DNA from: Chrysoperla carnea | Taxonomy: Eukaryota > Arthropoda > Insecta > Neuroptera > Chrysopidae | NCBI RefSeq assembly: GCF_905475395.1 | Contig: NC_058338.1 | Coordinates: 13,964,935 to 14,028,934 of the forward strand | Length of the DNA stretch: 64,000 nt | Direction of reading: 5' to 3' | Shown: positions 10,479 to 47,510 of the stretch, piece after piece | Numbering within the stretch: position 1 is the stretch's first letter | How the letters are laid out: every line of letters starts with the position of its first letter | The notes under the pieces: model-generated | Seen by the model: the letters and a program-made list of their open reading frames with translations, nothing else | Told to the model about the DNA's origin: nothing | Database searches by the model: none | Translations under genes and position numbers: made by a program

Positions 10479-10779
10479 TTTGTTCGATTAAATGTTTTTT
10501 TTTTTATTAATAATATATATTACGATTCGAAAAAAAATTTTTCGGTCTTAATAATAAAATATTTAATAATATTGAACAGAATTATTTTGATTTGACGTTG
10601 CCAACCAAAGATTATGCAATAGAATTTTTATTTATTTTGGTTACTTTAGCAAATGTTCAAAACATACAAATTTCATGGTCGTTTACTCATTACCGAAGTT
10701 TTGACGTAAGCAGGGCTTCCAACCTAGAAAAAAAGAAGTTAATTTTTCGAATTTGAAAAAGGTGACTTTTGGATTGAGG

Positions 10780-10879
10780 CCACAGATTATAATTTATAAC
10801 ATAAATAGATAGACAACTCTACTATACATGAAATGTTGTCCAAAAGCCCCCCCCCCCCCCAGAGTAAGTCACTTACAGT
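10780..10879. repeat. Left inverted repeat flanking zinc-finger gene A
   Basis: Begins ccacagattataatttat and passes through aactctactatacatgaaat to cacttacag. It is the inverted counterpart of 17019-17104. A run of about 14 C lies near 10847-10860. The same repeat recurs at 17322-17414 in unit B. Confidence 0.7.
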
Positions 10880-11599
10880 GAACTATTAAAAAACAAAAAT
10901 GGCGGGAATTAGGTACTATTTGAATTATTTCTATTTAGTTTATCTTTTTTTTTTTAAATTTTTTGTATTTATTTGTCTTCTAATAAATAAAATAACAAAT
11001 ATTAATAAAATAATAATTTATTGCAATATTTGAAACAAAATAGCATTTATTTTAATATGAACATTATTAATAACAATTAATTATTAGTTTGATGTAAGTT
11101 AAATGTAATGTTAAACCATTTTATTTCGTTAATAGTCAATTATAATCACAAATAAACACTACCTAAATGGAATCAACACGATTAAGAAGACCTAAGCGAT
11201 AAAATAAACTCAGTACATACCATAAAAAAATCGGAAAATAATATAAACACACTTAAAACGACTAAATTACATTAATTAGTTTATGAACGGGGGCACAATG
11301 AAAACGGCCAAAATACTTAAATATTGTCACTATTCAAATAATCCACAAAATGTTAATAAAGACAATCAATTGAGAATACACACAAAGAAATTTAACGAAT
11401 TTTAATGACATGCAAACGAATTTTGAAAGACGTAATGTTTATTTCTTTAAAAATATATAAAATATTGCTTCCCCAACAACCATTGAAATGGATAAATTAT
11501 TATCAAAACTAATAGATGGTCTCACACGAATATAACGTGTAGAGCCACCTAGAGAAAGGCACCTACAGAGAACCAAAATAGTAAAAATTTTACAGATAG

Positions 11600-12690
11600 T
11601 CTTGGGCATAGTCGGTCACCACTGAGAGCGCTCAATTTAGTTCATCATCCAATGGCGAACTAGTTCGCTCTATTAGTTCATTAGTTCTTTTTTTGAAATA
11701 ATTTAGTAAAAACAATAAATGAAAAAAAATAAAAATAGAAATAGAAAATAAAATGTTAATTTTAATTAAACTTTCCGTAGAATCAGATATGATTATTCAA
11801 AACAATTATTTAAAGTCCGTTATTAGATGTGGATATGAAGTTGTTTAGTATCGATAATATCGAAATATCGATAATATCGATATATCAAGGGGCGCGCACA
11901 GTAAAAGTAAATAACTCGGTTGATCACATAGCGCCACTGCCTACTGCCTAGTACAGTGGACGCTAAAAAAAATATAGCAAGTGAAAACAAACAATTGACT
12001 GAGTTAATTGTTGAAATACCATGTATAGACAGTGTTGATGCGCAATCGTTTGTTTTTTTGACGTCACGTAAATAACAAAAGATATTCACTTTTAAATAGA
12101 CACACACGCAACTGATATTCCTATATTAATACATATACTATAAAATTTGCACCTAATTAACGCCCTCGTAGGTAAACAGTGATGTTTACAAAAAAATGTT
12201 TCAAACAAGTTTTTTATTTTTTTATAAGGAACATTTTTTACATTTAAACTTTTGTTCTATCTCTAACGGTTTACAAGATGGGTCCTACGGACCCAAGACA
12301 CAATTGACCTATGATAGGCTATGATGCTCATTTACGAACTTGACCTCACTTTTTACGTCCTGAGTACGCTTTAAAAATTTCAGCTCGATATATTTTTTCG
12401 TTTTTGAGTTATCGTGTCCACAGACGGACGGACGGACGGACAACCGGAAATGGACTAATTAGGTGATTCTATGAATACCTATACCAAAATTTTTTTCGTA
12501 GCATCAATATTTTTAAGCGTTACAAACTTGGGACGAAACTTAATATACTATGTATATTTCATATATACGTGGTATAAAAAGAACTGACAGCGAGATCATC
12601 GATGAACTAGTTCGCATAGTTCACCTAAAGGAGCGCTCTTCCCACCTAGGTCGTTCACGAACTAGGTCGTTCACGAACCGAGACTATTTA
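11600..12690. mobile_element. Non-autonomous insertion present only in unit A, with a second repeat nested inside
   Basis: Unit B reads straight through aaaattttacagggagtt. Unit A is split at ttttacag and resumes at tttacaggg, so a 7-8 bp target duplication (TTTACAG) flanks the insert. The insert ends are inverted (atagtct / agactat). Subterminal gttcgtgaac/gttcac and aactagttcg motifs repeat at both ends. No transposase ORF is present. A reverse-oriented copy of another repeat family fills about 11976-12586. The target length suggests an hAT-like element, which is an inference. Confidence 0.75.
11976..12586 (-). repeat. Unclassified ~0.6-kb repeat family (call it R1), reverse copy
   Basis: This is the reverse complement of 53818-54365. 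Shared landmarks are gtgaaaacaaacaattgact, catcttgtaaaccgtt (as its complement) and a cagacgga-rich stretch. The copy contains a (GACG) microsatellite at about 12422-12440. No ORF of note. Fragments of the family also occur at about 25527-25570, 33848-33900, 45105-45348, 60178-60310 and 61245-61412. Confidence 0.7.
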
Positions 12691-12775
12691 CAGGGAGTTA
12701 CAGATCTGTTTTAAATTAAAAACTATAATCTGTGGGTCCAACATAAAATAAACCAACTCTAGTGGGTAAAAGTAT

Positions 12776-12782
12776 TATAAAA
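12776..12782 (+). promoter_or_regulatory. Candidate TATA box of zinc-finger gene A
   Basis: TATAAAA lies 38 bases before the ATG and is conserved at the same place in unit B. The short distance would leave a very short 5' leader. No transcript evidence is available. Confidence 0.4.
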
Positions 12783-12819
12783 CCAGAATATTTTTTGCGT
12801 TTTAATAAAGTTTTAAAAA

Positions 12820-15666
12820 ATGGCAACGATTCTATTTGAAGAAGTTGAAATTAAAAATGAAATATTTGAAGCCAATGATACAATGAAAGACGGACGAATT
12901 AAAAATGAAATTCTAGAAGATAGCAACAGTGTTAAAATGGAAGAAATACTAGAAAACAGTAGTGATTTTAAACAAGAACAAATCAATGAAAACGATACAA
13001 TTAACAATGACAATTTTAAACTTGAAAGACAATTGAACCCAGAATTATTTAGTGTTGATACTGAAGATCAACAAGCATTCTCAAGTAATGTTCATGCTGT
13101 AGAAAAGAAACATTTTTGTGATATTTGCAATAAAACATTTAATAATAATAGTAATTTAGTTGAACATAAATTGACTCATAGTGAAAAAAATACTTTTTCA
13201 TGTGATAAGTGTGATAAAACATTTAATAGACAAAACAGTTTGAATAAACATAAAATAATACATTCTGGTGATAAACTATTTTTTTGTGACATTTGTAATA
13301 AAAAATTTACAAGACATTGGAGTTTAGTTCAACACAAACGAATTCACACTGGAGAAAAACCATTTTTATGTGATATTTGTAATCGGGCATTTACTGACGC
13401 GAGTAGTTTAGTTAAACATAAACGAACTCATACTGGTGAAAAACCATATTTATGTGGTATTTGTAGTCGGGCATTTAACGACGCGAGTAGTTTAGTTAAA
13501 CATAAACGAACTCATACTGGTGAAAAACCATATTTATGTGATATCTGTAGTCGGGCATTTACTCATGCGAGTAGTTTAGTTAAACATAAACGAACTCATA
13601 CTGGTGAAAAACCATATTTATGTGATATTTGTAATCGGGCATTTACTGACGCGAGTAGTTTAGTTAAACATAAACGAACTCATACTGGTGAAAAACCATA
13701 TTTATGTGATATTTGTAATCGGGCATTTACTGACGCGAGTAGTTTAGTTAAACATAAACGAACTCATACTGGTGAAAAACCATATTTATGTGATATTTGT
13801 AGTCGGGCATTTACTGACGTGAGTAGTTTAGTTAAACATAAACGAACTCATACTGGCGAAAAACCATATTTATGTGATATTTGTAGTCGGGCATTTACTC
13901 AGGCGAGTAATTTAGTTGAACATAAACGAACTCACATCGAAATTAAAGTATTTTCGTGTAATCTTTGTACTAAATCATTTGCCAGACAAAATAATTTAGT
14001 TCAACATAAACGAATCCATAGTGGAGAAAAACCGTTTGTATGTGAGGTTTGTAGTAAAGCATTTAATTATTTACGTCATCTACTTAATCATAAAAGGACT
14101 CATAATGGGACAAAAAGATTTTCATGTCGTAATAAAACATTTAATGAAAAAAGTAGTTTAGTTGAAAATAAATTGGTTCACACCACGAGTGCGAGTGGTG
14201 CTAGTGACCACGAGAAAAAGGAACATTTATTGCCAGCTATTTACGAAAATATTAAACTTGACAAACAATTAAATACAGAAGTCACTATTAAAAATGAAGA
14301 ATATCCCGATAAATCGCTTCATACCGTAGAAAAAACATTTCCACAAAATAAATCTAGCGAAAACGAGAAAAAGGAACATTTATTGCCAGTTATTTACGAA
14401 AATATTAAACTTGACAAACAATTAAAAACAGAAGTCACTATAAACCCCGATCAATCGCTTCACGCCATAGAAAAAACATTTTCCCGAAATAAATCTGGTG
14501 AATGCGAGCAAAAGGAACATTTATTACCAGTTTTTAGCGAAACTATGAAGCTTGAGAAACAATTAAATACAGAAGTCGCTATAAACCCCTATAAATCGCT
14601 TCACACCGTAGAAAAAACATTTTCACGAAATAAATCTAGCGAACACGAGAAAAAGGAACAATTATTGCCAGTTATTTACGAGAATATTAAACTGGAAGAA
14701 AGTGTTACAATACAAGATGCACACATTAAAAATACGATATCGAAAGAAAGCAAAACTGATAGCATGGAAGAGATGCCTGATAACAAAAGTGGTATTAGTT
14801 GGGAATCTGAACGAAGTCATAAAAATGAGGAGCAAAAATTCAATACAGAAATATTGTCCATTAAAGATGAAATATTAGATGCGAATGTTTTAGAACCACA
14901 CATTCAAATTAACGATCAACCATTTATATCTCGAAAGTTTGGTTTAATTAAACATAAACGAATTCGCTCGAGAGAAAAAACATTTTTATGTGATATTTGT
15001 AGCAGAGCATTTAAGAGTCGAAGTCATTTAAATGAACATAAACGGACTCATACTGGTGAAAAACCATATTTATGTGATATTTGTAGTAAATCATTTAGCC
15101 ATGGGAGTAGTTTATTTAAACATAAACAAATTCACACGGGAATGAAACCATTTTCGTGTGATGTTTGTAATCTTAGTTTCAATAGACAAAGTAGTTTAAA
15201 TACACATAAATTTCTTCACACTGGTGAAAAACCATATTTATGTGATATTTGTAGTAAATCTTTTAGCCATGGGAGTAGTTTATTTAAACATAAACAAATT
15301 CACACGGGAATGAAACCATTTTCGTGTGATGTTTGTAATCTTAGTTTCAGTAGACAAAGTAGTTTAAATACACATAAACTTCTTCACACTGGTGAAAAAC
15401 CATTTTCATGTGATATTTGTAACCGAACATTTAATAAGAAAAGTAATTTAAATAAACATAAATTGATTCATAGTGGAGAAAAACCATTTTCATGTGACAT
15501 TTGTAGTAAATCATTTTCAGATAAAAGTAATTTAAGTAAACATAAACGGGGTCACATTAAGACTGAGATAACACGAGCCCAATCGATTTTAACACATGTT
15601 TTTTCAACTGCAAGTATTATTACAAACAATTCAAACAAAAAACTTGTCTTGGAAAATCTTAAATAA
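12820..15666 (+). CDS. C2H2 zinc-finger protein, copy A (948 aa, intronless)
   Basis: Probable nuclear DNA-binding protein. The acidic N-terminus (residues 1-95) has repeats of the type EVEIKNEIFEAND. A first array of 12 intact C2H2 fingers follows with TGEKP-type linkers. Fingers 4-10 are seven near-identical 28-residue units whose helix reads mostly TDASSLVKH. A degenerate 13th finger has lost its second Cys and one His. Then comes a linker with four imperfect repeats of a KKEHLLPVIYENIKL unit, and a second array of seven fingers alternating SFSHGSSLFKH and NRQSSLNTH. No KRAB, ZAD or BTB domain is seen, so the family within C2H2 proteins is not identified. The ATG is shared with copy B. A polyadenylation signal lies at 15752-15757. 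Target and role are unknown. Confidence 0.9.
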   Translation: MATILFEEVEIKNEIFEANDTMKDGRIKNEILEDSNSVKMEEILENSSDFKQEQINENDTINNDNFKLERQLNPELFSVDTEDQQAFSSNVHAVEKKHFCDICNKTFNNNSNLVEHKLTHSEKNTFSCDKCDKTFNRQNSLNKHKIIHSGDKLFFCDICNKKFTRHWSLVQHKRIHTGEKPFLCDICNRAFTDASSLVKHKRTHTGEKPYLCGICSRAFNDASSLVKHKRTHTGEKPYLCDICSRAFTHASSLVKHKRTHTGEKPYLCDICNRAFTDASSLVKHKRTHTGEKPYLCDICNRAFTDASSLVKHKRTHTGEKPYLCDICSRAFTDVSSLVKHKRTHTGEKPYLCDICSRAFTQASNLVEHKRTHIEIKVFSCNLCTKSFARQNNLVQHKRIHSGEKPFVCEVCSKAFNYLRHLLNHKRTHNGTKRFSCRNKTFNEKSSLVENKLVHTTSASGASDHEKKEHLLPAIYENIKLDKQLNTEVTIKNEEYPDKSLHTVEKTFPQNKSSENEKKEHLLPVIYENIKLDKQLKTEVTINPDQSLHAIEKTFSRNKSGECEQKEHLLPVFSETMKLEKQLNTEVAINPYKSLHTVEKTFSRNKSSEHEKKEQLLPVIYENIKLEESVTIQDAHIKNTISKESKTDSMEEMPDNKSGISWESERSHKNEEQKFNTEILSIKDEILDANVLEPHIQINDQPFISRKFGLIKHKRIRSREKTFLCDICSRAFKSRSHLNEHKRTHTGEKPYLCDICSKSFSHGSSLFKHKQIHTGMKPFSCDVCNLSFNRQSSLNTHKFLHTGEKPYLCDICSKSFSHGSSLFKHKQIHTGMKPFSCDVCNLSFSRQSSLNTHKLLHTGEKPFSCDICNRTFNKKSNLNKHKLIHSGEKPFSCDICSKSFSDKSNLSKHKRGHIKTEITRAQSILTHVFSTASIITNNSNKKLVLENLK

Positions 15667-17018
15667 ATACGTACTAAGGAGAAACTTACACAAAACATTT
15701 ATACCAAACATTTTCATGTACATTACATAAACAGAAAATTAAATTATGTAAAATAAATATTTTTAACACAATATGGTCTTTTTTTTTTGCTCCTTAAAAT
15801 AATCTCGTTTTAAAGTTGTTATGAAACCTTCCAAAAATTGACAGTCAATTATTCAAATAATAAGGAAAGTCTAGCCAAAATATGAAATCATTCCTGTCTA
15901 TGGTTATCGTGAAAAACGATGTTAAAAGTTATTAAGATGGGTTATTACATCGTATTATAGGAAAACAGAAAACGACAGAAATGACAGCTTCACAAAAAGA
16001 CTACTTCAGCATTTATCGAGAGCTTATAAATAACTGTACACATTTACAAAACATTTTTGGATTTAGTTTTTGAGATAATTAACAAAAATTGCATCAAATA
16101 TAATATAATTATATTACGCTTAGCAACGTTGCACATGTGTTGAAGATATGTCATTGTAATTGTTTATATATGTAATGTTTTGTATGAATAAATTTAGCTA
16201 CTGGCGATGGTTGAGTTGTAATCGAAATGTAAGTCTGTTGTATGTTTTTTAATTATATTTTTTAAATAAAATTTTTAACATATATAAAAAATTCAAAAAA
16301 AATAGATTTTCCCCCCGTCAACTTAAGAGAGTTTTATGTTGGAATTCTGCATCCAGTTATATTTCCATTTCATATAATCGACATAATTCACACAAAATAA
16401 TATAAATATGGAGGGTAGAGATAATAAAAAATACAAATGTTTTTGATCCGCATCCTTCAGTTCCGCCCTTAACTAACTACAAACTTCAAAAGGTGATAAT
16501 GGGCCTTTTCATCGATTTGCTTTTGTTTGCGGACAGTTGTCAAAAAACTATTCAAATTAAGAAAATTTTTGACAAGGAAAGAAGATATGTAATATGTCTT
16601 TACTTGATTGAAATCTGTCCGAAACAAAAAAAATCATTTTGTACATGAAAAGCCCTATCGATCCGTAGCACCTTCCGTTAGAATTTAATTTGCTGGACTA
16701 ACTCAAAACGATACTGTACAGCTCAAATAGATTCCGCTCAACAAAAATAAGTGCAAGTTTTATTGAGAGTCGTTTCTTTTGTTATTTTAAAAATGAGTTC
16801 AATATGTTAAGACCATCTCACATAAAAAAAAACGTAAGCAATTAGTCTTATTTCTGATATGTAAGTGGTTCAATTTGCTTGCAACTTACGTTTTTTTTAT
16901 GTGTGATGGGCATGAATGCTGATATACGTAAATCTCCTTAGGCTTAAGATATTATCCCGTCCTAGCGCTGTGTAAAACCCCTGAGGACAAATATATATTA
17001 ATTTAAATTTTCCTATTT

Positions 17019-17104
17019 GTGTAAAGTGCCTTTTTCCAGGGGGGTTTTTGGACATTTCATGTACAGTAGAGTTGCCTATCTATGTAGTAAATTATAATCT
17101 GTGG
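17019..17104. repeat. Right inverted repeat flanking zinc-finger gene A
   Basis: Reads gtgtaaagtgcc, then catttcatgtacagtagag, then aattataatctgtgg, the reverse complement of the left repeat at 10780-10879. The counterpart in unit B is at about 22125-22214. Confidence 0.7.
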
Positions 17105-17321
17105 ACCTGACCTTATAAACAAAGATAATAAATAATACATATATATTTATACCTGTGTAATATTATTTATTCTCTTTGTTTTAAGCACAGATTATTAAAA
17201 TTAATAAAAAAATTTCATGTTCGTTTACTCATTACCGAAGTTTTGACGTGCGCAGGGCTTCCAACCTAGAAAAAATTAAGTAAATTTTTCAAATTTGAAA
17301 AAGGTGACTTTTGGATTGAGG

Positions 17322-17414
17322 GCACAGATTATAATTTATTACATAAATAGATAGGCAACTCTACTGTACATAAAATGTTGTCCAAAAAGCCCACTAGAGA
17401 AAGGCACTTACAGT
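17322..17414. repeat. Left inverted repeat flanking zinc-finger gene B
   Basis: Same family as 10780-10879, without the long C run. It includes cactagagaaaggcactt, a cleaner version of the sequence disturbed in unit A. Confidence 0.7.
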
Positions 17415-18237
17415 GAACTATTAAAAAAAAATGGCGGGAATTAAGTACTATTTGAATTATTTCTATTCAGTTTATCTTTTTTTTTAATTTTTTTGTATTT
17501 ATTTGTCTTCTAATAAATAAAATAAAGTGAAGTTTTTGAAATAAAATAACAAATATTAATAAAATAATAATTTATTGCAATATTTGAAATAAAATAGCAT
17601 TTATTTTAATATTAACATTATTAATAACAATTAATTATTAGTTTGATGTAAGTTAAATGTAATGTAGAACCATTTTATTTCGTTATTAGTCAATTTTAAT
17701 CAGAATTAAACACTACCTAAATGTAATCAACACGATTTACAAGACCTAATGCGCTAAAATAAACTCAGTACATTACCATAAAAAAATCGGAAAATAATAT
17801 AAACACACTTAAAACGAATAAATTACACTAATTAGTTTATGAACAGGGGCAGGCACAATGAAAACGGCCAAAATACTTAAATAATGTCACTATTCAAATA
17901 ATCCACAAAATGTTAATAAAGGCAATCAATTGAGAATACACACAAAGAAATTTAACGAATTTTAATGACATGCAAACGAATTTTGAAAGACGTAATGTTT
18001 ATTTATTTAAAAATATATAAAATATTGTTTCCACAACAACCATTGAAATGGATAAATTATTATCAAAACTAATAGATGGCCATACACGAATATAACGTGT
18101 AGAGCCACCTGGAGAAAGGCACCTTCAGAGAACCATAATACTAAAAATTTTACAGGGAGTTGCAGATCTGTTTTAAATTAAAAACTATAATCTGTGGGTC
18201 CAACATAAAATAAACCAACTCTAGTGGGTAAAAGTAT

Positions 18238-18244
18238 TATAAAA
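18238..18244 (+). promoter_or_regulatory. Candidate TATA box of zinc-finger gene B
   Basis: TATAAAA lies 40 bases before the ATG, equivalent to the copy A site. The intervening sequence is almost identical between copies. Confidence 0.4.
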
Positions 18245-18283
18245 CCAGAATATTTTTTGCGTTTTAATATAAAGTTTTAAAGA

Positions 18284-20836
18284 ATGGCAACGATTCTGTT
18301 TGAAGAAGTCGAAATAAAAAATGAAATATTTGAAGCCAATGATACAATGAAAGACGGACGAATTAAAAATGAAATTCTAGAAGATAGCAACAGTGTTAAA
18401 ATGGAAGAAATACTAGAAAACAGTAGTGATTTTAAACAAGAACAAATCAATGAAAACGATACAATTAACAATGACAATTTTAAACTTGAAAGACAATTGA
18501 ACCCAGAATTATTTAGTGTTGATACTGAAGATCAACAAGCATTCTCAAGTAATGTTCATGCTGTAGAAAAGAAACATTTTTGTGATATTTGCAATAAAAC
18601 ATTTAATAATAATAGTAATTTAGTTGAACATAAATTGACTCATAGTGAAAAAAATACTTTTTCATGTGATAAGTGTGATAAAACATTTAATAGACAAAAC
18701 AGTTTGAATAAACATAAAATAATACATTCTGGTGATAAACTATTTTTTTGTGACATTTGTAATAAAAAATTTACAAGACATTGGAGTTTAGTTCAACACA
18801 AACGAATTCACACTGGAGAAAAACCATTTTTATGTGACATTTGTAATAAAGCATTTACGAAACAAAGTTATTTAAATGATCATAAACAGATTCATACTGG
18901 TGCAAAGCCATTTTTATGTGATATTTGTAGCAAATCATTTACCCAAAAAAGAACTCTAGTTACTCATAAAAGATCACACACGGGAGAAAAGCCATTTTTA
19001 TGTGATATGTGTAATAAAGTATTTATAAGTCAAAGTCATTTAAATGAACATAAACGGACTCATACTGGTGAAAAACCATATTTATGTGATATTTGTAGTC
19101 GGGCATTTACTCATGCGAGTAGTTTAGTTAAACATAAACGAACTCACACCGAAATTAAAGTATTTTCGTGTAATCTTTGTTCTAAATCATTTGCCAGACA
19201 AAATAATTTAGTTCAACATAAACGAATCCATAGTGGAGAAAAACCGTTTGTATGTGAGATTTGTAGTAAAGCATTTAATTATTTACGTCATCTACTTAAT
19301 CATAAAAGGACTCATAATGGGACAAAAAGATTTTCATGTCGTAATAAAACATTTAATGAAAAAAGTAGTTTAGTTGAAAATAAATTGGTTCACACCACGA
19401 GTGCGAGTGGTGCTAGTGACCACGAGAAAAAGGAACATTTATTGCCAGCTATTTACGAAAATATTAAACTTGACAAACAATTAAATATAGAAGTCACTAT
19501 TAAAAATGAAGAATACCCCGATAAATCGCTTCATACCGTAGAAAAAACATTTTCACGAAATAAATCTAGCGAAAACGAGAAAAAGGAACAATTATTGCCA
19601 GTTATTTACGAGAATATTAAACTGGAAGAAAGTATTACAATACAAGATGCACACATTAAAAATGAAATATCGAAAGAAAGCATAACTGATAGCATGGAAG
19701 AGATGCCTGATAATAAAAGTGGTATTAGTTGGGAATCTGAACGAAGTCATAAAAATGAGGAGCAAAAATTCAATACAGAAATATTGTCCATTCAAGATGA
19801 AATATTCGATCCGAATGTTTTAGAACCACACATTCAAATTAACGATCAACCATTTTTATCTCGAAAGTTTGGTTTAATTAAACATAAACGAATTCGCTCG
19901 AGAGAAAAAACATTTTTATGTGATATTTGTAGCAAAGCATTTAAGAGTCGAAGTCATTTAAATGATCATAAACGGACTCATACTGGTGAAAAACCATATT
20001 TATGTGATATTTGTAGTAAATCATTTAGCCATGGAAGTAGTTTATTTAAACATAAACAAATTCACACGGGAGAGAAACCATTTTCGTGTGATGTTTGTAA
20101 TCTTAGTTTCAATAGACAAAGTAGTTTAAATACACATAAATTTCTTCACACTGGTGAAAAACCATTTTTATGTGATATTTGTAGTAAATCATTTAGCCAT
20201 GGGAGTAGTTTATTTAAACATAAACAAATTCACACGGGAATGAAACCATTTTCGTGTGATGTTTGTAATCTTAGTTTCAATAGACAAAGTAGTTTAAATA
20301 CACATAAATTTCTTCACACTGGTGAAAAACCATATTTATGTGATATTTGTAGCAGAGCATTTAAGAGCCGAGGTCATTTAAATGATCATAAACGGACTCA
20401 TACTGGTGAAAAACCATATTTATGTGATATTTGTAGTAAATCATTTAGCCATGGAAGTAGTTTATTTAAACATAAACAAATTCACACGGGAGAGAAACCA
20501 TTTTCGTGTGATGTTTGTAATCTTAGTTTCAATAGACAAAGTAGTTTAAATACACATAAACTTCTTCACACTGGTGAAAAACCATTTTCATGTGATATTT
20601 GTAACCGAACATTTAATAAGAAAAGTAATTTAAATAAACATAAATTGATTCATAGTGGAGAAAAACCATTTTCATGTGACATTTGTAGTAAATCATTTTC
20701 AGATAAAAGTAATTTAAGTAAACATAAAAAGGGTCACATTAAGACTGAGGTAACACGAGCCCAATCGATTTTAACACATGTTTTTTCAACTGCAACTATT
20801 ATTACAAACAATTCAAACAAAAAACTTGCCTTGTAA
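18284..20836 (+). CDS. C2H2 zinc-finger protein, copy B (850 aa, intronless)
   Basis: Paralogue of the 948-aa protein. The first ~185 residues match copy A almost completely, then the first array differs. After finger 3, copy B has three distinct fingers (helices TKQSYLNDH, TQKRTLVTH, ISQSHLNEH) and one SRAFTHASSLVKH finger, where copy A has seven repeats of a single type. The degenerate finger is kept. The linker has only about one full KKEHLLPAIYENIKL unit plus a partial one. The second array is longer, with ten fingers against seven, through reuse of the SHGSSLFKH/NRQSSLNTH pair. The total is 19 intact fingers in both copies. The last codons differ: a stop comes 13 codons earlier than in copy A. 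A polyadenylation signal lies at 20928-20933. Confidence 0.9.
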   Translation: MATILFEEVEIKNEIFEANDTMKDGRIKNEILEDSNSVKMEEILENSSDFKQEQINENDTINNDNFKLERQLNPELFSVDTEDQQAFSSNVHAVEKKHFCDICNKTFNNNSNLVEHKLTHSEKNTFSCDKCDKTFNRQNSLNKHKIIHSGDKLFFCDICNKKFTRHWSLVQHKRIHTGEKPFLCDICNKAFTKQSYLNDHKQIHTGAKPFLCDICSKSFTQKRTLVTHKRSHTGEKPFLCDMCNKVFISQSHLNEHKRTHTGEKPYLCDICSRAFTHASSLVKHKRTHTEIKVFSCNLCSKSFARQNNLVQHKRIHSGEKPFVCEICSKAFNYLRHLLNHKRTHNGTKRFSCRNKTFNEKSSLVENKLVHTTSASGASDHEKKEHLLPAIYENIKLDKQLNIEVTIKNEEYPDKSLHTVEKTFSRNKSSENEKKEQLLPVIYENIKLEESITIQDAHIKNEISKESITDSMEEMPDNKSGISWESERSHKNEEQKFNTEILSIQDEIFDPNVLEPHIQINDQPFLSRKFGLIKHKRIRSREKTFLCDICSKAFKSRSHLNDHKRTHTGEKPYLCDICSKSFSHGSSLFKHKQIHTGEKPFSCDVCNLSFNRQSSLNTHKFLHTGEKPFLCDICSKSFSHGSSLFKHKQIHTGMKPFSCDVCNLSFNRQSSLNTHKFLHTGEKPYLCDICSRAFKSRGHLNDHKRTHTGEKPYLCDICSKSFSHGSSLFKHKQIHTGEKPFSCDVCNLSFNRQSSLNTHKLLHTGEKPFSCDICNRTFNKKSNLNKHKLIHSGEKPFSCDICSKSFSDKSNLSKHKKGHIKTEVTRAQSILTHVFSTATIITNNSNKKLAL

Positions 20837-22124
20837 AATCTTAAATAAATTAAAGAGAAACTTACACAAAACATTTATGCCAAACATTTTCATGTACATT
20901 ACATAAACAGAAAATTAAATTATGTAAAATAAATATTTTTAACACAATGGTCTTTTTTTTTTTGCTCCTTAAAATAATCTCGTTTTAAAGTTGTTATGAA
21001 GAAAATGCTATTTAATAAACCTTCCAAAAGTTGACAGTCAATTATTCAAATAATAAGGAAAGTCTAGCCAAAATATGAAGTCATTCCTGTATTTGGTTTT
21101 CGTGAAAAACGATGTTAAAGTTATTAATACGGGGTATTACATTGTATTATAGGAAAACGACAGAAATGACACTTTCACAAAAAGACTACTTCAGCATTTA
21201 TTGAGAGCTTATAATTAACAAAAATTGCATCAAATATAATATAATAATATTACGCTTAGCAACGTTGCACATGTGTTGAAGATATGTCATTGTAATTGTT
21301 TATATATGTAATGTTTTGTATGAATAAATTTAGCTACTGGCGATGGTTGAGTTGTAATCGAAATGTAAGTCTGTTGTATGTTTTTTAATTATATTTTTTA
21401 AATAAAATTTTTAACATATATAAAAAATTCAAAAAAAATAGATTTTCCCCCCGTCAACTTAAGAGAGTTTTATGTTGGAATTCTGCATCCAGTTATATTT
21501 CCATTTCATATAATCGACATAATTCACACAAAATAATATAAATATGGAGGGTAGAGATAATAAAAAATACAAATGTTCTTGATCCCCATCCTTCAGTTCC
21601 GCCCTTAACTAACTATAAATTTCAAAAGGTGATAATAGGACAGTTGTCAAAAAACTATTCAAATTAAGAAAATTTTTGACAAGGAAAGAAGATATGTAAT
21701 ATCTCTTACTTGATTGAAATCTGTCCGAAACAAAAAAGAATCATTTTGTAAATGAAAAGCCCTATTGATCCGTAGCTCCTTCCGTTAGAATTTAATTCAT
21801 TTGCTAGACTAACTCAAAACGATACGTTATAGCTCAAATAGATTCCGCTCAACAAAAATAAGTGCAAGTTTTAATGAGAGTAGTTTCTTTTGTTATTTTA
21901 AAAATGAGTTCAATATGTTAAGACCATCACACATTTAAAAAAAGTAAGCAATTAGTCTTATTTCTGATATGTAAGTGGTTCAATTTGCTTGCAACTTACG
22001 TTTTTTTTATGTGTGATGGGCATGAATGCTGATATACGTAAATCTCCTTAGGCTTAAGATCTTATCCCGTCCTAGCGCTGTGTAAAACCCCTGTGTACAA
22101 ATATATATTAATTTTCGTTTTTTG

Positions 22125-22214
22125 TGTAAAGTGCCTTCCTCCAGGGAGGTTTTTGGACAACATTTCATGTACAGTAGAGTTGCCTATCTATTTATGTAAT
22201 AAATTATAATCTGT
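22125..22214. repeat. Right inverted repeat flanking zinc-finger gene B
   Basis: Reverse-complement partner of 17322-17414. It passes through acatttcatgtacagtagag and ends aattataatctgtatg. Confidence 0.7.
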
Positions 22215-22234
22215 ATGTCGGACCTTACCTTATA

Positions 22235-22299
22235 AACAAAGAGAATAAATAATACATTTATGTTTATACTTGTGTAATATTATTTATTCTCTTTGTTTT
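22235..22299. repeat. Perfect-arm hairpin at the right end of unit B
   Basis: aacaaagagaataaataat pairs with attatttattctctttgtt across a ~25-base loop. The unit A version (about 17114-17180) has a mismatch in its left arm (aacaaagataataaat). A related fragment with tattctctttg and aaggtccaacataaa occurs alone at about 38398-38455, so this is a dispersed element. Confidence 0.6.
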
Positions 22300-22517
22300 A
22301 AGCACAGATTATTAAAATTAATCAATAATTTATATAAGTGCCTTTGGTTGTAATTTAGATTTTCCTTCTTTAAATTTATTGTTTATATATGTAATTGTAT
22401 ATCTGACCGTGATGTAATTTCAGCAACAATTTGAAAAAACCTCCAAATTTAAAACACTTCTAATGTTTAAAAAAAATCTAGGGAATTTAACATTTCAGAT
22501 GACTTGCTTATTTTGGT

Positions 22518-22603: not shown

Positions 22604-23887
22604 ATGGCATCATTAGAAGATAAATCAATATGGGACGATGGAGAAGATGCCCTAGGTGAAGAAGTACTTCGTATGTCAAATGATGAAATAATTAGTCGCA
22701 CTCGACTTTTAGACAATGAAATTAAAATAATGAAAAGTGAAGTAATGCGAATCAATCACGAATTACAAGCGCAAAATGAAAAAATTAAGGAAAATACTGA
22801 GAAAATTAAAGTAAACAAAACTTTACCATATCTAGTATCAAACGTTATAGAATTATTGGATGTAGATCCACAGGAAGAGGAGGAAGATGGTGCTGTAGTG
22901 GATTTGGATGCTCAACGGAAGGGAAAATGTGCAGTTGTTAAGACATCAACACGGCAGACGTACTTCTTACCAGTTATTGGTTTGGTTGATGAAGAAAAAT
23001 TAAAACCAGGTGATTTAGTTGGAGTGAATAAAGATTCATATTTAATTTTGGAAACTTTACCTGCTGAATACGATGCTCGAGTTAAAGCTATGGAAGTTGA
23101 TGAACGACCTACCGAACAATATTCTGATATCGGTGGTCTAGACAAACAAATTCAAGAATTAATTGAAGCTGTTGTCTTACCAATGACCCATAAAGAGAAA
23201 TTTTTAAACTTAGGTATCCATCCACCAAAAGGTGTCCTTTTATATGGTCCACCTGGTACTGGTAAAACATTGCTTGCTCGTGCATGTGCTGCCCAAACAA
23301 AGTCAACATTTTTAAAATTAGCCGGACCACAGTTAGTACAAATGTTTATCGGTGATGGTGCGAAATTAGTACGTGATGCTTTCGCCTTAGCCAAAGAAAA
23401 ATCTCCAGCGATTATATTTATCGATGAATTAGATGCAATTGGTACAAAACGATTCGATTCAGAGAAAGCCGGTGATCGTGAAGTTCAACGTACTATGTTG
23501 GAACTTTTAAATCAATTGGATGGATTTAGTTCAACATCAGATATCAAAGTTATTGCTGCTACCAATCGTGTTGATATTCTAGATCCAGCTCTTTTACGTT
23601 CAGGGCGTTTAGATCGTAAAATTGAATTTCCACATCCAAATGAGGAGGCTCGTGCACGTATTATGCAAATTCATTCACGTAAAATGACCGTAAATCCAGA
23701 CGTTAATTTTGAAGAATTAGCTCGTACAACTGATGATTTTAATGGGGCACAATGTAAGGCAGTATGCGTTGAAGCTGGTATGATTGCTTTACGTAGAAAT
23801 GCTTCAGCAGTTACTCATGAAGATTTCATGGATGCTATTATGGAGGTTCAAGCTAAGAAGAAAGCTAACTTGAATTATTATGCTTAA
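22604..23887 (+). CDS. PSMC3: 26S proteasome regulatory subunit 6A, Rpt5 ATPase (427 aa, intronless)
   Basis: One of the six AAA+ ATPases of the 19S base, which unfolds substrates and opens the 20S gate. The N-terminal coiled coil (about residues 25-70, rich in E, K and N) is followed by an OB-type domain ([27 protein letters not shown]). The AAA+ domain has Walker A GPPGTGKT, Walker [12 protein letters not shown], the sensor/arginine-finger block [21 protein letters not shown], and a C-terminal helical lid. The protein ends NYYA, which matches the HbYX tail of Rpt5 that docks into the alpha-ring pocket. Length is normal for the family. It is a full-length single exon with no sign of decay. 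The gene is convergent with KIF22. Confidence 0.97.
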
Positions 23888-33700: not shown

Positions 33701-36700
33701 GAAGTACTTTTTCAAAAATAGTGGAATACCCTATTATTTGGTTCGAATATAACTACGAGACAAACCCACGAGACTTTAGTTAAACATTTTCAAATTTTCA
33801 TGGAAACTATGAAAATGCATTAGAATAAATTATATTAAAAAACCCTGAAAATAAACAATTGATTGAGTTAATTGTTGAAATAACTTGTACAGACAATATT
33901 GAATATTAGTGCCTATTGAAGCCTAAATAAAAATATAAATGTAATAGAAAATTGCCAAAAGACTTTCTGAAATTGCTGAAGTTAAATCTGACTTCGGGAA
34001 ATGAGAAAATTCAATTAGGTGATTGAAAATAAGTATTAATGCCGAAAGGTGAATGTGAATAATATGGAAATTTAAATCATAGATAAATTTTAAAAGAGAG
34101 AAATAAAAATTTTTATCTCTTTAATTGTTTTTGCTTTTTTTATTATAAAAACGTAAGTCTATGCGCTAAAACTAAAATAGAATTTTTTCAGTTCAGATTT
34201 CGAGTATTAAAAAGCATTTGGTGACGACGATTTGTAATTATTGTAATAATTATGCATCAATGTCATTAGAAACAAAGTAGGACAGTTTGCTCTCATTTTA
34301 CCTATTATTACAATTAGATAAAATATTAATTAAGTTTCATTAAAATACAATTATTATTTAAATTATGTAAATATTACGTTTTTGCAATAGCATATAATAA
34401 TATATTTTATTTATTTATTTTTTTTTGAATTATCAATTTGACCTTAAACAATAATAAAATGTGTTATCTCATGTTATAATTGCGCTAGATTTAAAACTTG
34501 TTTAAACAAATATGGCTGCTGATTAAAGCGTGATTTTGTAGTTAATTCTTGAGGTTATGTTTTTATATCTGTTGTTTTTATTTTTTGCGATTCCAACTAA
34601 TGGGGGCACTATACCATAAAGGCAGGTTTCCTTCTAGTTCTATTTTTTTTTTAGTTTAACCTGTCTATAATGAGTTCAAAAAACGATTTTGATTTAATTT
34701 AGCATTTTTAGTTTTTTATTGCGTTATTTTAAACTCACTTTAACTCATTTGCTTATAATTTACATGCCAACGTAAGATTGTAATTTGCGTAGATTTGTAA
34801 ACTAGGTATTGAAATTGTAAACGCTTCCAAAAAAGGCCCTGATTGGGGTTAAAAGTTCAAATATTGGTGTAGATTGGCACATAAGACGATTTCTTTGATT
34901 GGTATTAAAATGTCGACGCATCTCGTATGGTTTTTTCTGTATGGTTTGTAGGATGCATATTCTCGTACATCTTATGGGCAATATACAATCATACCAAGTA
35001 GTTTTTTGTGACTTGTGCAATATGCAATCTCATAGTTTCCATTTTTAAGCGTCAGATTTCAAAAATTAAATTAGCCGTAACCCAACAAAACCCATATCTC
35101 TTGAAAGTAACTCAATGATCGGACCCTATGGTCTAAGTGTGTCCCACCCCAGGACAACCACTCTAACCTAACCTAACCTAACTCAATGATATATATATTT
35201 TGATTAAATAAGATTAAATTAATATATTTTGAAAATGTTTGAACAATTTTCATTAATTTGTATGTAAAGGTGATTCATGAAAATGCGGTTCGTCAAGTAA
35301 AAGAAGAGGTTGCTATACAAAAAGTATGTGGACATAATCCATTCATAGTTGGCTGCCCTTTTCATTGGCAAAGTCATAGACGATTATACATTGGTTAGTA
35401 AATGTTGCTAAGGCATTTATTTTTGAGATATTTTGAGTAAACATTTATTATTATTATATTTTATATTTTCAGTTAGTGAATATATTGATGGCGGGGAATT
35501 ATTTCATCTATTAGAACAATACGGATCATTACCAGAATATCTTGTTGCTGTATACGTCGCTGAAATTGCTTTAGGTCTTGGTAAGATAATTTTTTTTATT
35601 TAAAAACATATTGGAATTAATTTGGCTAAAAAGATGTTATATTTTTAACTTTTATAAGAAAACAAATTTAATCCTTCGAAGATCATCAACTTTTCCTAGT
35701 TGTGCATAAAATTGATGATTGGCGTGAACATCTTAACGTTAAAATCCCATACTTTACAATCATTGAAATTTTTAAAATTGAGATTGATAAAACATTGTTT
35801 AATAAGTGAAAAAATTGTATAGATTGCCTAGTATAAAATTAAATTGAGCCCAGTAAAATTTTTGTTATGATAAATAAAAAATATTTACAATTTTTAGATT
35901 TCCTCCACAACGCCGGAATCATATATCGTGATTTAAAACCAGAAAATATATTACTTGATCAAGAAAACGGCCACATTCATCTAATCGATTTTGGTTTATC
36001 AAAGTGGCTAAAATACGGAGATCGTACAACTACATTATGTGGTACACTACGTTATATGGGTACGGAATTAGCCTCATTTCTTGAATTTTTTACTTTTTTA
36101 TTTATACAAATTTTCTAACAAACAAACAAAAAAGCGAAAAATCTCCCAGGTACTAAAAAAATATATAAAATTGTGTGAAGTGAAGTGATAATAATAAAAA
36201 CGTAAAAATGAATGCACGGTCTCAAGTTTTTGAGTTGACAATGGAAGGTCGTCAAGTGGACGAAGCCGTTGCGAGTATATTCCATACAGTGTTATTTCAT
36301 CGATCGTTAGGTAAATTTATATATAATGCGGAGGGTAGTTATTCGGTTGGTACAGTGGGTTATACAGATGTTGACTGTGATTTTATTGACTTTACTTACG
36401 TTTGTTGTACATCAAGTACTTTAGATCGTACTCTTAAACGTGAAATATCTGGATTCTCAGAATTATTACGTGGTAACGAAGGTAGTGGTACCGGACAAAT
36501 TAGTTTAGAGTTCTTTCAAAAGAAACGTAATCGTTGGCCGTTTCAACCAGAATGTATACCTTGGGAAGTGTGGACTGTACGCTTAGAATTAATTAATTTA
36601 AATAGTGAGGACGAACGACAAGTTTGCAGGGAAAAAGTGGGAGAAATGTTAACTGATAAAATCTTATATATAACAGAGATTATGAATCGGCATGATTATG

Positions 36701-39700
36701 TACCAAAAATGCCAAACCAATCAGAGTTGGAATTAATATTCGATACTTCGTATGCGGATGTACAGCCTTATTTATTTAAATTTAATTATAGCACGGCAGG
36801 GCCGTCAAGTACATCTGTTGGTTCGACAATGAAAAAATTAATACGTGAAACTTTAGCACTATAGCAAAGTTATTAAAAAAACACGATTTCAAAAAATAAT
36901 ATAACAATTTTTAAATGTCCGTCCGTGTCCCAGCTTTTTATTTTTTAACTTTGACATATTTTACGGTATTTTTTACATTTTACTATTAAATTGGTGACCA
37001 TTTATTGAAATAATTAAATAATTAATCATTTCATTTGTAATATTTTATGAAAATATTGAAATTATGAGTTGAGGGGCTTCACATCACATTGGGGTTCAGA
37101 TAAACAGGTTAACTAAAAATAATTTTTGATGCATCTATTAATTATATTCAATGATTTTTATTTTATAAAAATTTATGTAGAGGTAATTTCTCGGTATGGG
37201 TATCTGTAAAAATTTTTTTTGGATGCAATAAATTTCCCTAGTAGTTTAAAACATTTCTCTACAAGAATTTCTGATGGGTTAATTTGTTTGGCAGTTATCG
37301 GGTAACGTTATTTTGTTTTTCTATGTAATGGTTTGAAATTTTTTATAATGTAATTCTAATAATGTCACCGATATAATAGATCTTGATTGATTTTATTTAT
37401 GGACGAATTTTTCCTTTTATATTAAAATGAAAATCTTTTTAGTTATAAATCATTTATCATAATCGTATTTAAATACCGTTTATTTAGATGCTAGACCAAA
37501 AAAGAAATAAACTTTTTTGTGTGTTGGTTACAAAACAAACAAAAAAATTTTGAAAATTGTTATATCCACTAATTTCCTAATGGAAAATTTTAATATACAG
37601 TAGAAACTATTGTGTATAAAAAATATTATGGAAAATTACTTTTAAAATTAGAATATTATCTTTAAAAGCATGTATGTAATAATTTTTTGTTGGAAAAAAT
37701 TATACATTCTAAAATAAATCTTTCTAAATGTTTTTTCCTCTTGTAAAAAATTTAAATTTTCACCTGAATTTATGGATGGTTCAAGAAAAATTTAGTATAT
37801 CATAATTAAGAATTTTCTTCTTAAGGTTAAATATAAACAAAAAATTATTGGCAAAATTTTAAAAATATTAAACTTTATCTTAGAATTTAATCTTAGAATT
37901 TATTGAAGGGCTATTCAAATTCAAATTTAGGATTCAAGCAAGCTATTTTAAAAATATAGCTGTGAGAGTAAATATACAATCTTTAATTTGGTTTTGGAAG
38001 TTTTGTTGACATTAAAAAATTCATCTATAGTACAGGAGACGGTATAAGTTCGACTTTCACTCAACTGATAATCAGATGAGACTTATTTTTTATGAAATTT
38101 TATTGGTTAATAAACTAAGCCTAAAATATTTTTTAAACACTAGCTTTAGTTAGCCGAATGGCAGGGACTAGAAGTATACAGATCGTGTTCAAAAGCATTG
38201 CTAACAGAGAATGAATGTTAAATATATAAATAAAATACTTACTACAAAACTATACATAGAGCAATTATGTTGTACCTTGGCGCATTGTTTAATTATTTTC
38301 AGGAAAAGCATATAATATTTGTGATTAGTTTTATAAATTAAATTTAAAAAATAAATTAAAGTATAGAAAAAGACATATTGATACATATGTATGTAATAAT
38401 ATTATGTATTCTCTTTGTGTGTAAGGTCCAACATAAATTGAGTTAGCTCTATGTATAGTTTTATTATATTATTTGTTTAACATTGTTTCTCTATTAACAA
38501 TATTTTTAATAATTCTCAATACTTAAAAATAATTCTGGTAAATTTTGATACGGCGTTAATTTTTCGAGTATTTGGTGTAATTTGGGAACATTAGGGTGAC
38601 CTTCTACAATTAAATTACGTATATAATATAGCCTTGAATCATTCATTATTCGATCAATAGAAGAAAGCGTAATTTTCTAATTCTAGATTCCAAATCCAAA
38701 ATATAATAACTGCTTTTTTTTACGAAAAGAAATTACAAATTAAATTACTTTTAAATCCTAAAGTTTAATTTGGATGCGCTTTATTATTAAAGGGGGTATC
38801 AATCATGATAGAAAAACAATAAACATCTTTTCCTACTTGGAGAGGGTATCAAAGTTTGAGAACAAACTTGATTTGTAAATAATAAAATTATTTTTTCAAA
38901 GGCTGTGGATGCAAATAGTTTATGATTTGTGTAATATTACTTGTGATTGTATTTGTTTGATTATATCTTAAATGTTCGATCATTCGCTAATACACTCGAA
39001 ACAATTTTGTACCTGAGAATTAAAAAAAAATAGATAAAAATTTGTGAAAAGTCATAACTTCTATGTTTGTTTGTATTTTGCTAATAAAAAGGTTATGCTT
39101 GATTATCCTTCGAAATTCGATACCAAAGAAAAAGGGTTATTTGACAAAAATAAATCACAAATTTAAGGACTAATACTCATATGTATAATTTCATCACTTA
39201 AAAATCCTAGTCCATAGTGTGAAAAACATTTAGGATATAATTAATTAGGTTTAATAAGCTCGTTTTGTTAGAGAATTTAAAAAAAAAAGAGTCCATGTTT
39301 TTTTTAACTATAATTGAGAATTTTAAGGAATCTATCTATGAAAAAATAACTAATAATTTTAATTGCTTTTATTTATGTGCTGAAATATTTATGGTTTTAT
39401 ATTTTTTATGTTTATCAAATACCACTGAATTCATTTTAAAGTGAAGTCATCGATGAATTACGAAATTTTCCACACATTTATGAATTTTTCATTAATTTAA
39501 ATTCCTTCTAAAAACAATCGATTTTTTTTGTTAACATTGTGTAATTCTTGGGTGGCTCTCTTATAGAAGGAAGATGCACGATTTAGTTTCTTCGAAATAA
39601 CATTATTTAGAAGAGTTATGTTTTCGAAATGCAATGAGAGGATATATTATTCAGTAGATTTTTATAATTCATCCTTATATGAATACATCTGGAATAGAGA

Positions 39701-43826: not shown

Positions 43827-44570
43827 GTAAGTAAATGCTAGGGTTTTATGCTGGTTAATTCGGATTTACATAATCAAATTAAAATAGCCATGAGATTTTC
43901 CAATGAGATTTGGTTAGATTTTCTTGACCACCCCCGCCCCCTTTGAGCTCACGTAATTTACGGATGCCCTCTAGCTAATTTATAATAATGAACGCTAGAG
44001 AGGAGCATATGAGGTCCTTGCCTAGGGAGCCATCGGCATTTAATTCGTTTCTGATACACAGCTCGTTATTAGCCGCAAGCCCCTTTTCTTTGGTTACCTA
44101 TGTGCCCAAAACCAATTATTTCAATTTACCATTGTATCTTCTATGCTTACCTTGCAAACTAGGAGTAATTTCTTAGTTATTCTTAAGAGTTTGGGGGGAA
44201 GAGATAAGGGACCCTCTTTTTGTAACGAAGAGTGATCTCGAAAAAGCCTTAAATTTAAGATGGCGTTGCTGTATCAGAGGACCATACTTACAGCTACAGC
44301 TCAGTTATTATTTTACATATTCTTTTAACTCAATTTGATTATGATTCATGAATACAAAAAATAAAAATATAAAAGTAGGAGTTGTAAATGTAATTTAATG
44401 AAATTTAAATTAGATTTATAAACAGGACATTGAATTGTGAAAAAATTTTACGCTATGCGTGTGATATATTATTCGTTTAATAAGTGGTGAATTAATCCAT
44501 TGACTTCCATTGGTCTATGTAAAATTATCAAAATATAATTTATTAGAATTCCAGGTTTTTATAGCATGTA

Positions 44571-45089
44571 ACAGGTTGGCTGATAAGTCCCCGGTCTGAC
44601 ACATAGATGGCGTCGCTAGTATTAAATGCATATTATTTTTATATAGTACCAACCTTCAAATGATTCGTGTCAAAATTTGACGTCTGTAAGTCAATTAGTT
44701 TGTGAGATAGAGCGTCTTTTGTGAAGCAACTTTTGTTATTGTGAAAAAAATGGAAAAAATGGAATTTCGTGTTTTGATAAAATACTGTTTTCTGAAGGGA
44801 AAAAATACAGAGTCCGGAAACTCATTATCAAGCCAAGTTTTTGTTTCCACTGTATTTTTTCCCTTCAGAAAACAGTATTTTATCAAAACACGAAATTCCT
44901 TTTTTTCCATTTTTTTCACAATAACAAAAGTTGCTTCACAAAAGACGCTCTATCTCACAAACTAATTGACTTACAGACGTCAAATTTTGACACGAATCAT
45001 TTGAAGGTTGGTACTATATAAAAATAATATGCATTTAATACTAGCGACGCCATCTATGTGTCAGACCGGGGACTTATCAGCCAACCTAT
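44571..45089. mobile_element. Palindromic mariner-derived MITE (519 bp)
   Basis: The ends read acaggttggctgataag and its near-perfect complement, flanked by TA on each side (44569-44570 and 45090-45091), as for Tc1/mariner elements. The whole element is a foldback with ~240-bp arms. Each arm carries the 5' end of a mariner transposase in opposite directions. On the plus strand MEKMEFRVLIKYCFLKGKN starts near 44750. On the minus strand MEKKEFRVLIKYCFLKGKN continues further (VETKTWLDNEFPDS). No catalytic domain is present, so the element cannot mobilise itself. Confidence 0.85.
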
Positions 45090-45104
45090 TATATATGGAA
45101 TATG

Positions 45105-45348: not shown

Positions 45349-45948
45349 AGTTTCCCCCTCCTCTAGGACTTAAACTCTCACATGCTAAAACGATACCGAT
45401 TTTTCATACGAAGTTTTCCATTACGGGAAAAGTCAGAAATTTCAATTTTCCAACTGTCAACTGTGTTGTTAACCAAAATAGGTTAAGTTTGTTAGAATTG
45501 AACAGTTTATACTCCGTGTTATATTTAAGCAAACCAAACATATCTGTTAAAGCGCAGTAATATTTTACCTGGTAAACCTAAATGCGAAATTCTAGCAACT
45601 TCTCTTGCTTTAAGTTTTGAGTCCTTCGCATTTAAATCTAAAAATAGCTTTGCGATAGACGATTCGATTTTGAAAAAAGCTTATCAAATTTTTGTTATCG
45701 ATAAACATTGATCCAAGACCATTAGGAGTTTAAGAATCATTCATTATCCAAATGGTAGTGACCAGGCTTACTATAAGTTATTATTTCACAGCCTCGCCCC
45801 CTCGATTCAACGAACTTATTATTAAATTTATTTAACGATGGAATTGAATAATAATTCCTTAATATCTATTTCGTCGCACAGTATTTATTTGTGAAGTAGG
45901 GAACTGTGCATACTTGGAAACTTCCATTGAAAACTCAATATCGATTTT

Positions 45949-47510
45949 GCGTTTTTCTCGATTTTTTGAAAGGGGTACCCCTTAAAAAAATTGCAAAAAA
46001 TCGAAAAATTTTTTTTAATCTCCAATTTTGATAAAACTCAGTATATAGGGTAATTTTGACCCAAAAATCACAAAAATCGGGTGCATTTGATGACTGGTCG
46101 AATAGTTTTTGAGATACGGACTAAAATCGATCCAAATATTACGATATCTCCGAAACTCTGCATCCAATCATTAAATTAACCCGATTTTTACACTTCTTGG
46201 GTCAAAATTACCCCATCCACCGAGTTTCATCAAATTCCAAAACAAAATTTTTTTTTGCGTTTTTCTCGATTTTTTCAAAGGGGTACCCCTTAAAAAAATT
46301 GCAAAAAATCGAAAAATTTTTTTTATCTCCAATTTTGAAAAAACTCAGTATATAAGGTAATTTTGACCCAAAAATCACAAAAATCGGGTGCATTTGATGA
46401 CTGGTCGAATAGTTTTTGAGATACGGACTAAAATCGATCCAAATATTACGATATCTCCGAAACTCTGCATCCAATCATTAAATTAACCCGATTTTTACAC
46501 TTCTTGGGTCAAAATTACCCCATCCACCGAGTTTCATCAAATTCCAAAACAAAATTTTTTTTTGCGTTTTTCTCGATTTTTTCAAAGGGGTACCCCTTAA
46601 AAAAATTGCAAAAAATCGAAAAATTTTTTTTATCTCCAATTTTGAAAAAACTCAGTATATAAGGTAATTTTGACCCAAAAATCACAAAAATCGGGTGCAT
46701 TTGATGACTGGTCGAATAGTTTTTGAGATACGGACTAAAATCGATCCAAATATTACGATATCTCCGAAACTCTGCATCCAATCATTAAATTAACCCGATT
46801 TTTACACTTCTTGGGTCAAAATTACCCCATCCACCGAGTTTCATCAAATTCCGAAACAAATTTTTTTTTGCGTTTTTCTCGATTTTTTCAAAGGGGTACC
46901 CCTTAAAAAAATTGCAAAAAATCGAAAAATTTTTTTTATCTCCAATTTTGAAAAAACTCAGTATATAAGGTAATTTTGACCCAAAAATCACAAAAATCGG
47001 GTGCATTTGATGACTGGTCGAATAGTTTTTGAGATACGGACTAAAATCGATCCAAATATTACGATATCTCCGAAACTCTGCATCCAATCATTAAATTAAC
47101 CCGATTTTTACACTTCTTGGGTCAAAATTACCCCATCCACCGAGTTTCATCAAATTCCGAAACAAATTTTTTTTTGCGTTTTTCTCGATTTTTTCAAAGG
47201 GGTACCCCTTAAAAAAATTGCAAAAAATCGAAAAATTTTTTTTATCTCCAATTTTGAAAAAACTCAGTATATAAGGTAATTTTGACCCAAAAAGTACAAA
47301 AATCGGGTGCATTTGATGACTGGTCGAATAGTTTTAGAGATACGGACAAAAATCGATCCAAATATCTCGATATCTCCGAAACTAAGTATCCAATCATTAA
47401 ATTAACCCGATTTTTGTACTTCTTGGGTCAAAATTACCCCATCCACTTTGTTTCATCAAATTCCAAAACAAAAATTTTTTTTGCCTTTTTCTCGATTTTT
47501 TTTAAAGTGA
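45949..47510. repeat. Satellite array, five ~307-bp units plus a partial unit
   Basis: The unit start gcgtttttctcgatttttt occurs at 45949, 46257, 46564, 46870 and 47176, with a partial sixth at 47483 (gcctttttctcg). Spacing is 306-308. Inner units are nearly identical, and the outer ones carry more differences. Each unit contains two foldbacks: a short one around aggggtaccccttaaaa, and a larger one where taattttgacccaa...aaaaatcgggt pairs with acccgattttt...ttgggtcaaaatta. The open frames inside (about 88 codons, repeated) exist only because the unit is stop-poor on one strand. Confidence 0.9.

Follow-up and report, generated by a model that had tools for sequence, protein, structure and literature searches.

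The window analysed here, a 64,000-nucleotide stretch of the Chrysoperla carnea genome (C2:13964935-14028934; the genome searched comprises 559 Mb in 337 contigs), contains two C2H2 zinc-finger genes, each set within one of two large direct repeats that lie head to tail. A BLAST of the window against itself delimits tandem unit 1 at 10668-17214 and tandem unit 2 at 17210-22331, both on the forward strand and with limits read from the alignment; within them, 10668-11595 matches 17210-18155, and 14942-17214 matches 20124-22331. Together with the list of open reading frames, this comparison bears out an earlier note on the same DNA, which had described two direct repeats, each with a single-frame C2H2 ORF between inverted arms.

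Gene 1 (12820-15666, forward strand) encodes 948 aa and gene 2 (18284-20836, forward strand) 850 aa, each with 19 canonical fingers in a single frame. Judged by their sequence, the TATA boxes of the two genes are at 12776-12782 and 18238-18244, respectively (both forward strand), the latter marking the point at which homology to two paralogs elsewhere in the genome (L081 and L083) begins. Both gene products consist of numerous tandem C2H2 fingers joined by TGEKP-type (five-residue) linkers. Pfam assigned them to zinc-finger families, with few extra matches that overlap the fingers, such as BolA, and detected no KRAB, ZAD or BTB domain in either product. In the non-finger parts, the motif [VILMF]KxE, which we take to be of the SUMO type, occurs 10 times in gene 1 and eight times in gene 2 (1.6 and 1.1 times in shuffled sequences), and this richness in both proteins is possibly linked to repression.

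The first 190 codons of the two genes differ by a Ks of 0.057 and a Ka of 0.003 (simple count), which points to either purifying selection or conversion. The finger arrays differ in composition: the first array of gene 1 strings together nearly identical fingers of a type represented in gene 2 by a single finger, and the second array of gene 2 carries extra fingers relative to gene 1. The expansion of ZF271-like or APEZ C2H2 genes in the pea aphid and Oncopeltus, as far as it is described in the consulted part of PMC6444547, offers a parallel in the many tandem C2H2 fingers, the gene clusters in tandem, the variable arrays and the lack of KRAB, the likeness being one of domain features alone.

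Immediately 3′ of the duplication, one open frame of 427 aa (22604-23887) encodes a proteasomal-type AAA ATPase, and an ATG101 gene is present in the window at 36208-36864.

An 874-bp MITE upstream of each gene

Alignment of fetched genomic loci to unit 2 revealed sharp limits, at positions 17323 and 18196, of an 874-bp element on the forward strand that runs from CACAGATTATA to TATAATCTGTG, ends that are common to many copies in the genome. Downstream of its right end, the TATA box of gene 2 follows after ~40 bp and the ATG after 87 bp. The corresponding copy in unit 1 (10781-12734, forward strand) is split by a later insertion. The earlier note had seen at the left of each gene a ~90-bp repeat; this repeat is real, yet instead of standing free it forms the start of the 874-bp element. 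Similarly, its observation that part of the same repeat recurs just upstream of each TATA box holds for tataatctgtgg, which is the other end of the element, but not for acataaaataaaccaactcta, which lies beyond the element end and is like the arm only to a degree that shuffled sequences also reach (P 0.055); a further MITE piece in the gap from the MITE to the TATA box was rejected on these grounds.

The first 313 bp of unit 1, used as a query, returned at least 43 matches, most of them beginning near base 113, and the next 616 bp returned at least 42, including both window units, mostly at 84-95% identity. A 44-base arm pattern representing the left end of the element (up to three mismatches) has 145 matches in the genome, the window's own included, against none for the same pattern reversed; the inverted arms are therefore not a product of chance. 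Besides those of the window, 17 full-length copies of about 800-900 bp were compared, all bounded by CACAGATTATA and TATAATCTGTG with few variants. They are flanked by 8-bp target duplications that are exact in eight of the 17 and carry at most one mismatch in nine of the 17 (for mispaired flanks the mean was 0.5 and the maximum 4), while eight of the 17 have no clean duplication (two or more mismatches). The sharp ends and the 8-bp duplications together define an 874-bp MITE with CACAG...CTGTG ends, and no ATG-started ORF of at least 150 aa is present within 17323-18196.

MITEs of the hAT and P superfamilies have 8-bp target duplications and CA...TG ends. The family described here is like them in being short and non-coding, with terminal inverted repeats, 8-bp target duplications and more than 100 copies, and unlike them in that no autonomous partner was found among the transposase matches scored. 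There were 17 P-transposase matches, 10 of which are on contig C6 and the other seven at least 15.9 kb from the nearest listed MITE, and P-type transposases were tentatively set aside as the partner, none being near any listed MITE. For hAT, the best 150 of 1204 candidates were scored and 124 places were compared, leaving out C6, where no MITE is listed; a hAT fragment occurs within 5 kb of one of the 130 listed MITE loci. This locus (L084) was considered as an autonomous hAT relative and discarded, since the MITE copy there is complete and does not include the hAT fragment. The 130 loci are those that are distinct among the matches listed, which hold 100 of the 145 pattern matches. Contig C6 accounts for none of these 130, yet for 8 of the 114 sampled C2H2 loci and 11 of the 117 kinase loci considered below.

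The insertion that splits the unit 1 MITE is transposon-like, measures ~1.09 kb (11596-12686) and is absent from unit 2. A direct repeat, read as TTACAG/TTACAG or as TTTTACAG/ATTTACAG, marks its edges, the exact end being ambiguous by 1-2 bp. It holds, at about 11975-12580, a very abundant ~600-bp repeat with 6759 first-look candidates in the genome.

The zinc-finger genes lie outside the element

The arrangement of the arms had been likened in the earlier note to a gene-carrying transposon with long terminal inverted repeats. Under such an interpretation, the ~90-bp arms would be the terminal repeats, the zinc-finger gene the cargo, and the transposase would act in trans; the outward orientation of the arms in both units and their likeness of 85-93% speak for it. 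However, both ends of the MITE (17323 and 18196) are upstream of the gene, the MITE's own right end preceding it, which places the gene outside the MITE. Moreover, no 8-bp duplication brackets the arm-bounded segment, where the earlier note had proposed to look for target duplications just outside the repeats. The duplicated stretch also extends past the arms, by 113 bp to the left of the left arms and by 111 and 117 bp to the right of the right arms, and this overshoot of 111-117 bp indicates that the repeats did not arise by transposition of the arm-bounded segment; no clear target duplication was seen at the limits of the tandem units. Finally, the same frame was expected to recur at unrelated loci if the gene had been mobilised. 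Among the matches listed, no outward-facing pair within 20 kb was found for the ~130 copies outside the window, and all three outward-facing pairs within this distance come from the window itself (the survey covered 136 oriented entries, four of them in the window, with one element entered twice). In light of these results, we regard a gene-carrying transposon as highly improbable.

The suggestion that an element was involved thus stands as far as the presence of a MITE-like element is concerned, while neither gene capture nor duplication through the element, both considered in the earlier note, finds support. We regard the MITE as a passenger, by which the gene is neither carried nor mobilised, and what is seen comes close to the contrary outcome named in that note, independent insertions of MITEs. 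Matches to the 3′ flank were likewise rejected as a sign of a mobile gene: outside both units, they extend over no more than portions of the 3′ region (65-93% identity), and they were used only as a control set.

The right arms and a possible inversion

On the far side of each gene, the right arms (17024-17103 in unit 1 and 22129-22214 in unit 2, both on the reverse strand) are truncated, inverted pieces of the MITE left end, about 80-105 bp in length. The two arms of unit 2 (17324-17409 and 22129-22214) are 93% identical over 86 nt, and the unit 2 left arm (17323-17409) is 85% identical to the unit 1 right arm (17024-17103).

The flanks of the MITE itself are mismatched in both units, with 6-7 of 8 positions differing. 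Its right-hand flank, GGTCCAAC (18197-18204, forward strand, and identical at 12735-12742), has a candidate counterpart in GGTCCGAC (22217-22224, reverse strand), which lies 2 bp beyond the unit 2 right arm, at its outer flank, and matches GGTCCAAC in inverted orientation at seven of eight positions. This is the only inverted match to GGTCCAAC with at most one mismatch in 10601-22400, the background being 1.7e-4 per position. The presence of an inverted GGTCCAAC beside the unit 2 right arm suggests that the arms recombined and that the DNA between them was inverted: a crossover between the two inverted left ends would have flipped a ~4.9 kb segment with the gene and carried one half of the MITE target duplication to the far side. 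In unit 1, the flank flush with the right arm matches GGTCCAAC at only four of eight positions, and would have to have changed if the inversion took place. We favour the inversion between the MITE left end and its inverted truncated copy, at chances that seem to us about even. The sequence clue to it is a single 8-bp match, which is imperfect and stands 2 bp away from the arm.

Alternatively, the complete upstream MITE and the truncated downstream one may have inserted independently, their duplications having decayed and the 7-of-8 match being fortuitous. Copies reduced to the first ~90-130 bp of the left end do exist elsewhere in the genome (L043, L046, L051 and L057), and eight of 17 full copies have lost a clean duplication. 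Against it, an inverted match to the flank no more than 2 bp from an arm end is expected by chance in approximately one case in 1000 (an estimate obtained by multiplying 1.7e-4 by a few offsets). We hold this alternative to be a little short of an even chance, a judgement that concerns the inversion step alone, since insertion and tandem duplication form a core common to both readings.

Inversions through ectopic recombination have been reported for Galileo, a P-superfamily transposon of Drosophila, in the consulted part of PMC4168063. As in the cases outlined there, inverted transposon copies occupy both ends of the segment, and the flanks in the window have apparently been exchanged; unlike them, the segment in the window is about 5 kb in size and confined to one locus, its arms are ~90 bp long, and its inversion would be read from one 7-of-8 match.

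A proposed history of the locus

Three of the seven best-matching places in the genome were examined as paralogs. Their alignments to the window gene start at 18240 (L081), 18273 (L082) and 18239 (L083), meaning that the shared portion is the part from the TATA box into the coding region in L081 and L083, and the coding part in L082. A BLAST of unit 2 found no MITE in the 2.0-3.5 kb upstream of these three paralogs, bar a weak 33-bp match in L081, which implies that the MITE was probably a later arrival. At L082, a MITE copy is located ~4.6-5.3 kb away, on the 3′ side of the gene. Because the MITE and the right arm are present in both units, both of them predate the tandem duplication.

Differences between the two units amount to 41 of 844 aligned sites in the MITE, 43 of 1269 in the 3′ flank and 8 of 113 in the left flank, compared with 1 of 85 in the promoter and leader and 7 of 567 in the N-terminal part of the ORF. 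The MITE thus bears no sign of constraint. These figures bear on the idea that the MITE was recruited as the promoter and that the arrangement has been kept because the MITE drives expression of the gene. The distance of 87 bp between MITE and ATG would fit this idea, as would copies at L018, L042 and L065, where ~70-150 bp separate the end of the MITE from the first in-frame ATG of another C2H2 ORF. Nevertheless, the TATA box and the leader are common to paralogs L081 and L083, where the MITE is lacking, and we consider promoter recruitment unlikely. The MITE may now act as promoter-proximal DNA, with a putative regulatory role.

Taken together, the locus is probably the product of a MITE insertion beside the gene, the acquisition of a truncated inverted copy and a tandem duplication, with a possible inversion before the last of these. 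We infer the order of the older events as follows. In front of an intronless C2H2 gene, ~40 bp 5′ of its TATA box, the 874-bp MITE with its CACAG...CTGTG ends and 8-bp target duplications would have inserted, and on the far side of that gene another copy, truncated and inverted, would have been present. After the putative flip between the two left ends, a head-to-tail duplication would have copied everything from arm to arm together with over 100 bp of adjoining DNA on either side. Later, another element would have entered the MITE of unit 1, and the finger arrays would have drifted apart as fingers were gained, lost and homogenised. Each of these parts and mechanisms is known and ordinary, from the MITE and its truncated relative to the tandem duplication of the gene and the small inversion, if there was one. 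In place of a tempting gene-capture reading, they make up a history that can be checked: a MITE inserts, the segment with the gene perhaps inverts, the whole is duplicated in tandem, and a further element nests in one of the MITE copies.

Members of the MITE family beside other C2H2 genes

A C2H2 ORF with at least two fingers is present at 15 of 57 distinct MITE loci, inspected over roughly 0.7-1.5 kb around the element and with the window excluded, and one more locus has a single finger. In seven cases, the MITE lies ~70-740 bp before the first in-frame ATG (L018, L030, L042, L045, L055, L065 and L073), in three it lies ~5-480 bp after the stop (L004, L013 and L044), and the remaining five are between or beyond finger ORFs, with both orientations of the MITE represented. 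Positions so varied are better explained by separate insertions than by a single block that was duplicated. Other copies of the MITE are near genes that, from their translations, look like housekeeping genes.

For a broader comparison, sampled loci of C2H2, kinase and RRM genes were used, the C2H2 sample being the best 150 of 8863 candidates from a class of genes that cluster. A sampled C2H2 locus lies within 5 kb of 10 of the 130 MITE loci, as opposed to none of 130 for kinase and 1 of 130 for RRM. Conversely, a MITE is found within 10 kb of 15 of 114 C2H2 loci (13%) versus 1 of 210 kinase and RRM loci (0.5%; Fisher P 9e-7, odds ratio 32), and within 5 kb of 9 of 114 versus 1 of 210 (P 5e-4). 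The MITE lists behind these counts were seeded from a copy that itself neighbours a C2H2 gene, and they are biased to the closest relatives of that copy; several association tests were run, and all P values given here are uncorrected for multiplicity.

As the control genes may themselves be near C2H2 loci, we counted such neighbours as well: 2 of 117 kinase and 1 of 93 RRM loci have one within 5 kb, and 3 of 117 and 5 of 93, respectively, within 10 kb. MITE loci exceed the combined controls at both distances (10 of 130 versus 3 of 210 at 5 kb, P 0.006; 15 of 130 versus 8 of 210 at 10 kb, P 0.008), the difference from RRM alone being weaker at 10 kb (P 0.15). That RRM loci, too, are near C2H2 loci at 10 kb slightly lowers the probability that we give to the reading set out below. 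Of 77 places with either of two other repeats, one is within 5 kb of a C2H2 locus (P 0.057) and two are within 10 kb (P 0.033); for the repeat from the unit 1 insertion alone, the count at 5 kb is 0 of 39 (P 0.12).

We tentatively raise the possibility, which we hold to be doubtful as yet, that this MITE family is concentrated by intronless C2H2 genes, often within a few hundred bp of their start or stop. The family could insert preferentially into their chromatin, or insertions could be kept as they modulate putative transposon repressors, with regulatory DNA being shared; short inverted copies, in turn, may make these genes prone to flipping and duplication. Should it hold in the full annotation, the association would tie a transposon family to a gene class proposed as transposon repressors, outside vertebrates. 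It can be tested with existing genomes and matters more than the history of the single locus. No report of a MITE tied to insect zinc-finger genes was recognised among the titles and abstract openings of the open-access literature. The consulted part of PMC10547256 describes C2H2 gene expansions that coevolve with transposons in animals and, as we do here, considers the two jointly; it links numbers and predicted binding, whereas in our case a single MITE family adjoins the C2H2 genes themselves.

Other repeats

Several further repeats were observed in the window. Each tandem unit ends in a short AT-rich palindrome (17109-17186 and its match in unit 2) followed by CACAGATTATT, and a relative is located at C1:15347633-15347710. 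A near-perfect long hairpin occupies 44566-45094, with 245-nt arms that are 99% complementary and 39 nt apart. It is followed, at 45944-47502, by an array of ~307-bp direct repeats that are about 97-98% alike; in inverted orientation, these repeats also show self-pairing at about 70%.
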